Below, piece by piece: positions 33,948 to 44,195 of a DNA stretch of 64,000 nt. Position 1 is the first letter of the stretch. Every line of letters starts with the position of its first letter. The translations under genes and the position numbers were made by a program. Under the pieces are notes generated by a model, which was not told where the DNA came from, searched no databases, and saw only the letters and a program-made list of their open reading frames with translations. The stretch covers positions 1 through 64,000 of the forward strand of contig NZ_POQU01000011.1 in the NCBI RefSeq assembly GCF_002938425.1. Reading direction: 5' to 3'. The DNA comes from Blastococcus atacamensis (lineage in GTDB: Bacteria > Actinomycetota > Actinomycetes > Mycobacteriales > Geodermatophilaceae).

Positions 33948-33994
33948 GGAACGGGCGTACCCGCATCGCGGCGGATACGCCCGTGCCGGCGAGG

Positions 33995-36175
33995 TCAGTT
34001 CTCGGCGGAGACCAGGTCCGGCGCCGCGTGGCGGCCCGAGGGCGTCTTCTCCAGCGCCGACCCCTCGACGTCGAGCACCGGGAGCCAGCGCAGCCAGCGC
34101 GGCAGCCACCAGGCCCGCTCCCCCAGCAGCGCCAGGGCGGCGGGGACCAGCACCATCCGGACGACGAAGGCGTCGAAGAGGATGCCGGCGGCGAGCGCGA
34201 AGGCGATCGACTTGATCGTCGCCTCGCCGGCGGGCACGAATCCGGCGAACACCGAGAACATGATCAGCGCGGCCGCCACGACGACCGGCGCCGCCTGGCG
34301 GAAACCGGTGCGGATGCTGTCCAGCGGTGCGGCACCGTGGCTGTGCGCCTCGTGCATCCGCGACACCAGGAAGATCTGGTAGTCCATCGCCAGGCCGAAC
34401 AGGATCCCGATCACCAGGATCGGCGTCAGGCTGATCAGCGGGCCGGTGGTGTCCAGGTTGACCACGTCGGCCAGCCAGCCCCACTGGAACACCGCCACGG
34501 TTGCCCCGAGCGAGGCGCCGACGGTCAGCACGAAGCCCAGCACGCCGACCAGCGGCACCAGCAGCGAGCGGAAGACCAGCACCAGGAGGACCAGCGCCAG
34601 GCCGACGACCAGGCCCAGGTAGACCGGCAGCGCCTCGTCCAGGCTGCGCGCGACGTCCACGCTCACCGCGGTCGCACCGGTGACCGAGGCCTCGACACCG
34701 GCGTCGAGGTCGGCCAGCTCGGCACGCAGGTCCGCGACCAGCTGCTCGGTGGCCGGGTCGGTCGGGCCGGACTCCGGGATGACGCTGAGCAGGGCGGCCG
34801 TGCCGTCGGCGTTCGGGGTCGGCGGGGTGACCGTGACGACGTCGTCCAGCTCGCCGATGGCGCCGCTGACCCCCGCCGCGACCTCGGCCGCGCGGTCGCC
34901 CTCGAAGAGAACGGCGAGCGGGCCGTTGAAGCCTTCGCCGAAGCCGTCGGAGAGCAGCTGCTCGGCCCGTGCCTGCGTGCTGTCGGCGGGCGGCTGCTGC
35001 ACGAGCGTCGTCTGCATCGAGAAGAACGGGACCGCGAGCACGCCGAGCACCACGATGCTCAGCAGCAGGCTGACGAACCGGTGGCGGGAGACCGTCGCGG
35101 CCCAGCCGGCGAGGAAGCCCCGCCCGGCCGGAGCGCTCCCCGGCGCGGCGTCGCGCTGCCTGCGCGGCAGCACCCGCCGGCCGAGGAAGCCCAGCACGGC
35201 CGGCACGAGGGTCAACGCGACGAGGACGGCGACGACGATGGTGGCCGCGGCCGCGACACCCATCTGGGTCAGGAACGGGATGCCGACGACGAACAGCCCG
35301 GCCAGCGCGATGATCACGGTGAGGCCAGCGGTCACCACGGCGGAGCCGGCGGTGCCCACGGCGGTGGAGAGGGCCGTCGCGACGTCGGCGCCCTGGCGGA
35401 GCTCCTGGCGGTGGCGCGTGATGATGAACAGCGCGTAGTCGATGCCGACGGCCAGGCCGAGCATCGCGGCCAGGGTCGGGGTGGTCGAGGACAGCTCGGT
35501 GAAGCCGGTGGTGATGGTGACGCCGAGGACACCGATGCCGACGCCGACGATCGCCGTCAGCAGGTTCATGCCGGCGAGGACCAGTCCGCCGTAGGTCACG
35601 GCGAGGACCAGCAGGGCGATGACGACACCGATCGCCTCGCTCGGGCCGCCGACGTGCGGGGCCTTTTGGGTCGCCTCACCGGCGACCTCCACGGTGAACC
35701 CGCCGTCACGGGCGCCGTCGACGGCCTCGAGCAGCGCCTCCTGTTGGGCAGGGGTGACCTCGCCGGGCGCGGACTCGTAGGTGACCGTGCTGAACGCGGT
35801 GGTCTGCTCGCGGTTGACCGACGGTGCCGCCGGGTCCAGCGGGTCGGTCGCGGAGACGACGCCGGGCAGCTCGTCCAGTTCCGCGACGAGCCGGCCGATC
35901 GTGGCGGCGCCCTCGGGCGTGGTCAGCGTCTGGCCGTCCGGGGCCACGACGACCACGCGCGCGGTGGCTCCCTCGCCGCCGGCGCCGAACTCGTCGCCGA
36001 TGCGGTCGAGGGCGACGGTGGACTCCTGCCCGGGGATGGAGAAGCTGCTGGACGTCTCGCCGGCCAGGGTGACCGCGCCGACGCCGCCGCCGACGAGGAC
36101 CGCCAGCCAGACGAGGACGACGGCGAGCCGGTGCCGGTGCGAGAACGCGCCGAGTCGGGACAACACGAGAGCCAT
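33995..36175 (-). CDS. MMPL/RND-family transporter
   Basis: Proton-driven exporter of 726 residues. It has the two-fold MMPL layout: a TM helix at residues ~13-33 (LAVVLVWLAVLVGGGVGAV), a large extracytoplasmic domain, five helices, then a repeat of the same. The characteristic intramembrane motif is seen as LGLAVGIDYALFIITRHRQE in the first half and ILFGLAMDYQIFLVSRMHEA in the second. Such proteins export lipids or drugs. It starts 5 nt after the tetR stop, so it is probably the repressor's target operon. Confidence 0.93.
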   Translation of the reverse strand: MALVLSRLGAFSHRHRLAVVLVWLAVLVGGGVGAVTLAGETSSSFSIPGQESTVALDRIGDEFGAGGEGATARVVVVAPDGQTLTTPEGAATIGRLVAELDELPGVVSATDPLDPAAPSVNREQTTAFSTVTYESAPGEVTPAQQEALLEAVDGARDGGFTVEVAGEATQKAPHVGGPSEAIGVVIALLVLAVTYGGLVLAGMNLLTAIVGVGIGVLGVTITTGFTELSSTTPTLAAMLGLAVGIDYALFIITRHRQELRQGADVATALSTAVGTAGSAVVTAGLTVIIALAGLFVVGIPFLTQMGVAAAATIVVAVLVALTLVPAVLGFLGRRVLPRRQRDAAPGSAPAGRGFLAGWAATVSRHRFVSLLLSIVVLGVLAVPFFSMQTTLVQQPPADSTQARAEQLLSDGFGEGFNGPLAVLFEGDRAAEVAAGVSGAIGELDDVVTVTPPTPNADGTAALLSVIPESGPTDPATEQLVADLRAELADLDAGVEASVTGATAVSVDVARSLDEALPVYLGLVVGLALVLLVLVFRSLLVPLVGVLGFVLTVGASLGATVAVFQWGWLADVVNLDTTGPLISLTPILVIGILFGLAMDYQIFLVSRMHEAHSHGAAPLDSIRTGFRQAAPVVVAAALIMFSVFAGFVPAGEATIKSIAFALAAGILFDAFVVRMVLVPAALALLGERAWWLPRWLRWLPVLDVEGSALEKTPSGRHAAPDLVSAEN

Positions 36176-36180
36176 GCGGA

Positions 36181-36777
36181 TCAGGCCTCCACCTGGTCGG
36201 GGCTGGGAAGAGCGGCGCCGGGTCGGCGGTGGCCGAGCGCGTCGAAGCAGGTGGCGGCGACGTGCGCCCGCCACGCGGTGGTCTGGTCGTCGGTCTGCGC
36301 AGCGAGTGTGAGGACGGCGAGGGCGCCGAGGGCCCCGATCACCCGGACCACCCGCTCGGGCGCGGTGGTGGCCGGATCGACCCCGAAGGCCTCGAGGACG
36401 GCGATCTCCGGGGAGACGTCCTCCGCGAGGGCACCGCCGTCGGCCCGCGTCACGGGGGCGATCAGCAGGGCCACGAGCCCGGGGTGCGCCAGGGCGGAGT
36501 CGACGACGACGTCGATGGCGAACCGGTCCCGCTCGGCACCGAACGGCAGATGCCGGACCTCGTCGAGCACCCGCTGCGCCACGGTGCCGACCTGCGCCAC
36601 CACCGCCTCGCGCAGCGCGTCCTTGCTCGGGAAGTGGTGCAGCAGACCGGCCTTGGACAGGCCCACGGCGTCGGCGATGTCCTGCACCGAGGTCTTGGCG
36701 AACCCCTGGCGGGCGAACAGCGCGGCGGCCCGATCGAGGATGCCCTCGTCGATCTGCTGCCGGAACGGACGCGCCAC
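36181..36777 (-). CDS. TetR-family transcriptional regulator of the MMPL operon
   Basis: It has 198 residues. The N-terminal helix-turn-helix is IDEGILDRAAALFARQGFAK, then TSVQDIADAVGLSKAGLLHHFPSKDAL (shown as TSVQDIADAVGLSKAGLLHH). The C-terminal ligand domain is variable. The GTG start is 6 nt after TATCGT, which is leaderless geometry. A 19-bp palindrome lies just upstream, over the expected -35 position, so autorepression of tetR-mmpL is likely. The inducer is unknown. Confidence 0.93.
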   Translation of the reverse strand: MARPFRQQIDEGILDRAAALFARQGFAKTSVQDIADAVGLSKAGLLHHFPSKDALREAVVAQVGTVAQRVLDEVRHLPFGAERDRFAIDVVVDSALAHPGLVALLIAPVTRADGGALAEDVSPEIAVLEAFGVDPATTAPERVVRVIGALGALAVLTLAAQTDDQTTAWRAHVAATCFDALGHRRPGAALPSPDQVEA

Positions 36778-36783
36778 CAGCCC

Positions 36784-36789
36784 ACGATA
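36784..36789 (-). promoter_or_regulatory. -10 hexamer TATCGT for tetR-mmpL
   Basis: TATCGT, then GGGCTG, then GTG at 36777. The operator at 36796-36814 begins 6 bp further upstream. Confidence 0.5.
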
Positions 36790-36795
36790 CGACCG

Positions 36796-36814
36796 ACCGA
36801 CCGATATGGTCGGT
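36796..36814. promoter_or_regulatory. Probable TetR operator
   Basis: ACCGACC-GATAT-GGTCGGT is a 19-bp palindrome with perfect 7-bp arms, preceded by further GACC units. TetR repressors typically bind such sites. It covers the expected -35 region of the tetR promoter. Confidence 0.65.
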
Positions 36815-36857
36815 TTACCGCACGGAAAGGTCGGTGCCGTTCCTCACAGGGCTACGG

Positions 36858-36931
36858 TGCCCCCGGTCGGATTCGAACCGACACTCGAACCCTTTTAAGG
36901 GGTCTGCCTCTGCCGATTGGGCTACGAGGGC
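36858..36931 (-). tRNA. tRNA with predicted UAA anticodon but type I (short variable loop) structure
   Basis: A 74-nt cloverleaf reads on the minus strand. The acceptor stem is GCCCTCG/CGGGGGC (one U-G). The D arm is GCCC...GGC. The anticodon stem is GACCC/GGGTT with the 7-nt loop CTTAAAA, giving anticodon UAA (36898-36896). The variable loop is 5 nt (CGAGT). The T arm is GTCGG-TTCGAAT-CCGAC, and the discriminator is A. CCA is not encoded (ACCG follows). UAA would decode the leucine codon UUA, but bacterial tRNA-Leu normally has a long variable arm, so the amino-acid identity is uncertain. Confidence 0.8.
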
Positions 36932-42386: not shown

Positions 42387-44195
42387 TCAGAAGGGCGGGA
42401 GGTCGAGGTCGCTGCCGAAGCGGGGCACGTGGCCGACCAGCACCTGCCCGCTGGGCATGGTGACCGCCAGAGCACCCTGTTCGCCCTCGTCGAAGCGCCA
42501 GCCCGGCGCCTGGTGCCTGAGCCGGTGATGGTGTTCGCACAGGCAGCAGAGGTTCTCGTGCGAGGTCGTCCCGTGGGGCCATTCGCGCCGATGGTCGAGG
42601 TCACAGGTGCGCGCACGGGCGCGGCAACCCGGGAAACGGCAGCGCCGGTCGCGCAGTCGGACGAAGCGATCCAGAGCCGCCCCCGGGGTGTACCCGTCAC
42701 TCGGTGAGGGCGGGCCAAGGGCCGATCCGCAGCGGATGCCCGCAGCGTCGGTCAGCGCGACCAGACTTCCCCGCAGCTTGTCCACGACGGCGATCTGCGG
42801 CCGGTGCGCGAGACCCGTCCCGTCGACGTCGCGCACGCCGATCAGCGCTCCCACGTCCAGGAGTGCGCGCTGCTCGCCGTCGGTCCAGGTGCCGTCGAGG
42901 ACCGCCTGCTTCGCACCGGTCAGCGCCTCCCCCGCCGCGGCCTCGTCCCGCGCCCGGGCCAGCGCGAGCCACTCACTCAGCGTGCGGTCCTCCACGGGCG
43001 TGGGCGTGAGTGCTGACGGGGATCGGAGCGCATGGGGCGGCTCGAGGTCTCGGTCGGGCAGCTCCGCGACACCGGGCGCGGGGTCGGGCAGCTCCGCGAC
43101 ATCGGGCGCGGGGTCGGGCAGCTCCGCGACATCGGGCGCGGGGTCGGGCACCTCCGCGACATCGGGCGCGGGGCGGGGTAGCAGGCCGAGCGTGTACGCG
43201 AGCTCGCGAACCATCGCGGCCGACACCAGCATGCCCTCGACCTGCCCCGGCTCGGCCCCACCCAGCATCGTCTCCAGCGTGGCCACGAGGGTGAGCGCGA
43301 CGGTGACCGGCGGCATCCCGTGCTCGCCCCGCCGCAGGATCAGCTCTTGGACGCAGTCGGCCATGCGTTGCTGCTTGGTCCGCTCGTCCCCCTCGACCCG
43401 GGCCGCCTCCGCGTACTCCTCCAGCGCTCGGTAGATGGCCGCCGCGGCCGGCAACGGCAGGTCCAAGGAGATCGTCGCCGTGCCGTCGCGGCGGTCGTGC
43501 AACCGCACGCCCCGCTCCCGGACCGCGGCCACCAGCTTGCGCGCGGCGGCATCAGCGTCCTTGCGGAGCACGATCCGCCGCGCGCAGTCGCCCAGCTGAG
43601 GGGGCGTCTTGCGACCGCGCAGGCCAAGCACGTGCGCCTCGATCTCGGCGCGCAGCGCATCGTCCTCGACCGGCCCCACGACGTTCACCATCTGCCGCGC
43701 ATGAGCCGGGCTCAGCTCACCGCGGGCCAGCAGGGCGAGGGTTCCCGGCAACCGATCCGCCAGCACCAGCGAATCAGACAGCTGAGCACCTGCGGCCGCC
43801 GAGGTGATCCCCAGCGTGGGCGCCACCTCGTCGACCGCCCACTCGCTCACCTCCGACAGGACGGCCGGCCGGGCGGCCCGGGTGGCCGCCGACATGGCCC
43901 CCCGCTCGCCGGGTTGCCGGTCCAGCACCGAGGACGGGCGGCACCCGGCGAAGGCGGCCAGGGAGGTCGCGACCACAGCAGACAGCCGGGCGATCTGCCG
44001 TGACGCCTCGGCGGCCCGCTCCAGGTGGTCGGCGCCGACCTCCAGCAACCGCCGCAGATCCGTCGGCCCCGCCTCTTCGGCCGCGGCGTCGTCCCCGCCG
44101 TGCGGACCCGAAGCGGACTGACCGGCAGCCCATTCCCACACCTCCGGGAGCGGGTGGATCAGTTCGATCACCAACCGCGTGCGGCGAGTCAGCAC
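42387..44195 (-). CDS. DUF222/HNH endonuclease (13E12-repeat-like family)
   Basis: It has 602 residues. The N-terminal ~300 residues form the helical DUF222 domain (LLARGELSPAHARQMVNVVG is typical). A Pro/Ala/Asp linker of four 10-residue repeats follows. The C-terminal HNH domain has RDRRCRFPGCRARARTCDLD, then HRREWPHGTTSHENLCCLCEHHH (shown as DLDHRREWPHG and CCLCEHHHRLRH), with zinc-type Cys pairs and catalytic His. Members are abundant and often repetitive in actinobacterial genomes. They may be mobile or recombination-prone, but no terminal repeats are visible here. A perfect SOS box lies in its promoter. Confidence 0.88.
   Translation of the reverse strand: MLTRRTRLVIELIHPLPEVWEWAAGQSASGPHGGDDAAAEEAGPTDLRRLLEVGADHLERAAEASRQIARLSAVVATSLAAFAGCRPSSVLDRQPGERGAMSAATRAARPAVLSEVSEWAVDEVAPTLGITSAAAGAQLSDSLVLADRLPGTLALLARGELSPAHARQMVNVVGPVEDDALRAEIEAHVLGLRGRKTPPQLGDCARRIVLRKDADAAARKLVAAVRERGVRLHDRRDGTATISLDLPLPAAAAIYRALEEYAEAARVEGDERTKQQRMADCVQELILRRGEHGMPPVTVALTLVATLETMLGGAEPGQVEGMLVSAAMVRELAYTLGLLPRPAPDVAEVPDPAPDVAELPDPAPDVAELPDPAPGVAELPDRDLEPPHALRSPSALTPTPVEDRTLSEWLALARARDEAAAGEALTGAKQAVLDGTWTDGEQRALLDVGALIGVRDVDGTGLAHRPQIAVVDKLRGSLVALTDAAGIRCGSALGPPSPSDGYTPGAALDRFVRLRDRRCRFPGCRARARTCDLDHRREWPHGTTSHENLCCLCEHHHRLRHQAPGWRFDEGEQGALAVTMPSGQVLVGHVPRFGSDLDLPPF
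43051..43170 (-). repeat. Four 30-bp in-frame tandem repeats in the HNH gene
   Basis: Units at 43051, 43081, 43111 and 43141 encode PDPAPDVAEL-type decapeptides. The last three differ by only one or two bases. They form the linker between DUF222 and HNH. Length variation between strains is likely. Confidence 0.92.

Follow-up and report, generated by a model that had tools for sequence, protein, structure and literature searches.

A short-armed tRNA-Leu(UAA) gene in Blastococcus atacamensis

We analysed a 64,000-nucleotide stretch of the Blastococcus atacamensis genome (contig NZ_POQU01000011.1, positions 1 to 64,000; hereafter the window), which carries on its minus strand a gene for a tRNA-Leu(UAA) with a short variable loop. 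Reviews describe bacterial tRNA-Leu as having a long variable arm. The original prediction, made from the letters of the sequence, had proposed a 74-nt cloverleaf paired in all four arms, with a UAA anticodon, a variable loop of 5 nt and a 3' end whose CCA is not encoded, and each of these features was borne out (Table 1). ARAGORN called a tRNA-Leu(TAA) at 36856-36931 (-), and Rfam RF00005 matched 36858-36931 as a four-arm cloverleaf at 58.6 bits, well over the gathering score, which is 29. The minus strand from 36931 to 36858 reads GCCCTCGTAGCCCAATCGGCAGAGGCAGACCCCTTAAAAGGGTTCGAGTGTCGGTTCGAATCCGACCGGGGGCA and is followed by CCG; it parses into the segments GCCCTCG TA GCCCAATCGGCAGAGGC A GACCC CTTAAAA GGGTT CGAGT GTCGG TTCGAAT CCGAC CGGGGGC A, giving acceptor, D, anticodon and T stems of 7, 3, 5 and 5 bp and the discriminator A73. 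In the structural parse, the D-arm consists of a 3-bp stem (10-12 with 23-25), A14 A15, G18 G19 and C20 A20a G21 A22. Class II (type II) tRNAs have a variable region of at least 10 nt, and the 5 nt found here place the gene in class I (type I).

Table 1. Features of the tRNA-Leu(UAA) gene in the window.
Feature	Position	Strand	Basis
tRNA-Leu(UAA), type I, 5-nt variable loop, positions 1-73, 74 nt	36858..36931	(-)	ARAGORN, Rfam, covariation, congeners
Anticodon UAA within loop CUUAAAA	36895..36897	(-)	Sequence
Variable loop CGAGU; last base U48 able to form A15-U48 Levitt pair	36883..36887	(-)	Structural parse
D-arm, leucine geometry	36906..36922	(-)	Structural parse; stem compensatory changes

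Covariation among 20 homologues, drawn from Actinomycetes and several other phyla, agreed with this fold. Standard pairs filled 98.8% of pair cells, both-sided changes occurred at 17 of 20 pairs, and compensatory changes were present in all four stems; none of 500 shuffled controls reached either value. Because covariation is strong and structures slid along the alignment are only 34-55% paired, the anticodon register is fixed; a shifted register was considered and ruled out by the 5-bp anticodon stem with its compensatory changes. Conservation of the anticodon among homologues, a check that the original prediction had called for, was seen in the best 30 loci (one per genome, 30 genomes), all of which carry the CTTAAAA loop unchanged.

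The gene was present in 24 of 24 sampled genomes of the genus, B. atacamensis included, and lies near eno and DUF501 in all 14 fetched regions from the same genus and family. Many phages carry type I tRNA-Leu genes, which would fit a pseudogene or a decayed phage- or plasmid-borne tRNA, but the Rfam score, the compensatory changes in every stem, the genus-wide locus near eno and DUF501, the presence in every congener sampled and the failure to find a second UAA tRNA in this genome make decay most improbable. Scans for sigma-70 promoters and terminators found none near the gene, a result that is weakly informative in a high-GC actinomycete. A 971-aa mechanical open reading frame (ORF) on the plus strand (33983-36898) lies antisense over MMPL and TetR genes and runs into the tRNA, ending in PVGFEPTLEPF; such an ending is typical of spurious ORFs that cross a tRNA gene.

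The only tRNA with a UUA-reading anticodon found in the genome

An RF00005 search returned 47 tRNAs in the genome. Read individually, the leucine tRNAs with anticodons UAG, CAG and GAG are long-armed, and those with UAA and CAA have 5-nt loops. The CAA partner is a type I tRNA-Leu(CAA) (L074 1456-1531; G000:C139:7455-7530) whose D-stem has C10-G25 instead of G10-C25, a compensatory change. None of the 47 is a long-armed UAA or CAA tRNA, and a pattern for long-armed UUR (UUA and UUG) tRNAs likewise matched none. We also ran a covariance model built from type II tRNAs on three single-contig congener genomes (G007, G018 and G022) and read out its type II-length matches, which comprised only four tRNA-Ser, tRNA-Tyr and tRNA-Leu with GAG, CAG and TAG anticodons. 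With type II UAA and CAA tRNAs found neither in the genome nor in the three closed congeners, tRNA-Leu(UAA) is the sole tRNA with a UUA-reading anticodon found in the genome and not, as had been proposed, a second UUA reader beside a standard long-armed one.

The genome has one leuS gene above the curated cut-off, and TrmL (TIGR00185), sought as a partner modification enzyme, gave only sub-threshold matches. The long-armed tRNA-Leu(UAG) (L067; G000:C1:8006-8086) has an odd D-arm, GTGTAACGGCAGCCAC, with AGCC rather than AGAC, conserved among congeners.

UUA and UUG codons align with leucine

UUA had been expected to be very rare, and it is: the 41 called genes of the window contain 0 TTA and 32 TTG in 17,915 codons, and TTA accounts for 4 of 71,946 codons in 14 regions from close relatives. 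Because UUA is almost absent, UUG codons, which the CAA tRNA would read as well, probably make up most of the demand on tRNA-Leu(UAA). Where relatives carry a codon other than TTG or TTA at window TTG sites, it is a CUN leucine codon in 93 of 108 cases (86%), and window CTG sites show a similar leucine alignment rate of 85.5%. UUA itself could be followed in IMCC26103, a closed genome of 47% GC in which every UUR tRNA is of type I and TTA makes up ~2% of codons. TTA sites there align with leucine in 63% of cells; the figure is 68-69% at CTG and CTT sites and 19% at ATT sites. Related sequences recur among these cells, which are therefore not independent. Together, the alignments indicate leucine, and not a different amino acid, as the meaning of UUA and UUG.

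The scarcity of UUA also bears on an analogy drawn in the original prediction, with Streptomyces bldA, which fits as regards the decoding of UUA only; none of the results shows regulation. A regulatory tRNA whose abundance gates a few UUA-containing genes would account for a codon that is nearly absent from the window and from close relatives, yet whose tRNA is kept in every congener sampled. The UAA anticodon can, however, wobble to UUG too, and the same tRNA reads a common codon in low-GC relatives; we therefore regard such a role as unlikely. The regulatory function of bldA may not reach beyond Streptomycineae, as the literature suggests (PMC4255298).

Leucine identity elements in a class I body

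In E. coli, leucine identity depends on A73, A15-U48, G18G19, A20a and contacts between the D and T loops, the long arm being irrelevant; A14 also counts there, and human mitochondrial tRNA-Leu(UUR), which lacks the arm, is charged with leucine through A73 and A14 (PMC9976931). A73, A14, A15-U48, G18G19 and A20a are all present in the parsed tRNA-Leu(UAA). It shares these elements with type II tRNA-Leu(UAA), bldA included, as well as the UAA anticodon, the YUUAAA loop, the C20-A20a-G21-A22 run and the 3-bp D-stem, but differs in having a variable region of 5 nt, against 13-17 nt in the parsed examples, and C.A instead of G.A at 13-22. The animal mitochondrial tRNA-Leu(UUR) is likewise a UUR leucine tRNA without the long arm, identified by A73 and A14 (PMC9976931); it is organellar and structurally weak, whereas the Blastococcus tRNA is a stable bacterial cloverleaf of its own lineage.

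These features bear on a second proposal, that the tRNA has a body from a different isotype (Arg, Thr or Lys), acquired UAA by anticodon mutation and inserts another amino acid at UUA and UUG. The acceptor stem is a near match to tRNA-Arg(CCG/CCU), and outside the D-arm the tRNA is overall as similar to Arg(CCG) as it is to the CAA partner (0.70 in both cases). Against this, the D-arm has leucine geometry with A20a and A15-U48, its loop letters and 3-bp stem being those of type II tRNA-Leu where Lys, Asn, Ala and Trp tRNAs have a 4-bp D-stem; the UAA loop is conserved across phyla; leucine aligns with UUG sites at the same rate as with CUG sites; and UUA sites in IMCC26103 align with leucine. 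Charging with another amino acid, which had also been raised, thus lacks support from the codon alignments, which point to leucine, and we judge it very unlikely. As to the ancestry of the body, the similarity ranking among the genome's own tRNAs would fit either a type II leucine tRNA or another isotype as its source.

We conclude, with a probability of about 0.9, that tRNA-Leu(UAA) serves the cell as its leucine tRNA for UUA, and probably also for UUG by wobble, in a class I body. Two points weigh against this conclusion beyond the resemblance to Arg(CCG). The assembly is in 163 contigs, though it is rated 99.99% complete and the closed congeners agree; and the window genes contain no UUA, so that its meaning as leucine in this species rests on relatives. 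Since bacterial LeuRS (leucyl-tRNA synthetase) has no need of the long arm, we infer that the single LeuRS charges this tRNA, and it would do so through A73 and the D-loop/T-loop core. The short variable loop would keep SerRS (seryl-tRNA synthetase) away because that enzyme needs a long arm. CCA would be added to the transcript, and EF-Tu would deliver the Leu-tRNA to UUA and, by wobble and jointly with the CAA partner, to UUG.

Type I and type II UUR tRNAs across Actinomycetes

Some match to tRNA-Leu(UAA) was found in 37 of 41 genomes searched. Of 297 genomes drawn from across the class, at least 125 matched the type I UUR pattern and at least 93 the type II one, both counts being lower bounds under strict patterns; a loose pattern, GAACN{13,14}NNTTRARN, run over the order matched mostly by chance and was rejected. 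Families differ sharply. The type II pattern matched 27 of 27 genomes of family f33, whose tRNA (L299) is bldA-like, and the type I pattern 1 of 27; in family f40, with small genomes, the type I pattern matched 23 of 27 and the type II pattern 0 of 27. In Streptomyces-like genomes the UAA tRNA is still the long-armed bldA type. Named records with a type I UAA gene include Mycobacterium, Mycolicibacterium, Nocardia, Rhodococcus, Gordonia, Corynebacterium, Nocardioides, Arthrobacter-like genera, Microbacterium, Streptosporangium, Actinomadura, Blastococcus and Klenkia. The gene also occurs in metagenome-assembled genomes assigned to Planctomycetota, Rokubacteria, Deltaproteobacteria and Chthonomonadales, where binning error is possible. 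The small, closed IMCC26103 genome has two differing type I tRNA-Leu(UAA) genes (L084 and L284, C1:76655-76727).

Mixed sets occur in both directions. A type I UAA tRNA stands together with a type II CAA tRNA in G317, G044 and G374, and the reverse mosaic of type II UAA with type I CAA is found in G200 (L303/L304) and G215 (L312/L313). Because the reverse mosaic occurs within one genome, the UAA and CAA isoacceptors appear to have exchanged type independently of each other.

Phage-borne relatives and a replaced host tRNA

Actinophage tRNA-Leu genes, such as those of Mycobacterium phages Kykar and H2, are annotated tRNA-Leu and have a similar type I sequence over the full length; they are phage genes, whereas tRNA-Leu(UAA) here is a conserved chromosomal one. 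A link to the CAA partner comes from Mycobacterium smegmatis, in which tRNA-Leu-CAA is an attB site: phage Gaia disrupts the host gene when it integrates there and substitutes a copy that it carries itself (PMC10865867). Positions 32-75 of our type I CAA query matched M. smegmatis phage records, for example Courthouse and Porcelain, and the matched 44 bp, which begin in the anticodon loop and reach the acceptor end, equal the attP core length given for cluster J. The Gaia replacement lends the CAA partner indirect experimental support from a relative. Type I tRNA-Leu(CAA)-like sequences, most of them annotated tRNA-Leu, also occur in phages of hosts outside Actinomycetes, namely LP65 and Bacchae (Lactobacillus) and phiEa21-4 (Erwinia).

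We tentatively suggest, at somewhat less than even odds, that over much of the Actinomycetes class I leucine tRNAs replaced class II ones for UUR codons, that this happened repeatedly and independently for UAA and CAA, and that phages were possible carriers. If so, the class would offer a natural test of whether leucine identity in bacteria can do without the long variable arm, with bldA as the retained exception.

Relation to earlier work

Type I genes of this kind are already routinely annotated as tRNA-Leu, in phages as well, and we found no paper in the open-access literature that describes type I tRNA-Leu in Actinomycetes. In the parts available to us, a 571-tRNA phylogeny by Sun and Caetano-Anolles reports some short-armed Leu, Ser and Tyr tRNAs, infers that type I structures took over type II charging functions and, unlike the present analysis, names no actinomycete UUR tRNA (PMC2474678). 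The locus by itself appears to serve an ordinary translation function, and its form is widespread. The UUR pair of this genome and many relatives nonetheless breaks the textbook long-arm rule; it agrees with in vitro results in which E. coli LeuRS disregards the arm, and it offers a natural system for testing them. For annotation, isotype classifiers that use the arm as a mark of leucine could flag valid genes. Elsewhere in the window, at 42387-44195 (-), a DUF222 protein contains a tandem PDPAPDVAELPD-like repeat in its middle.
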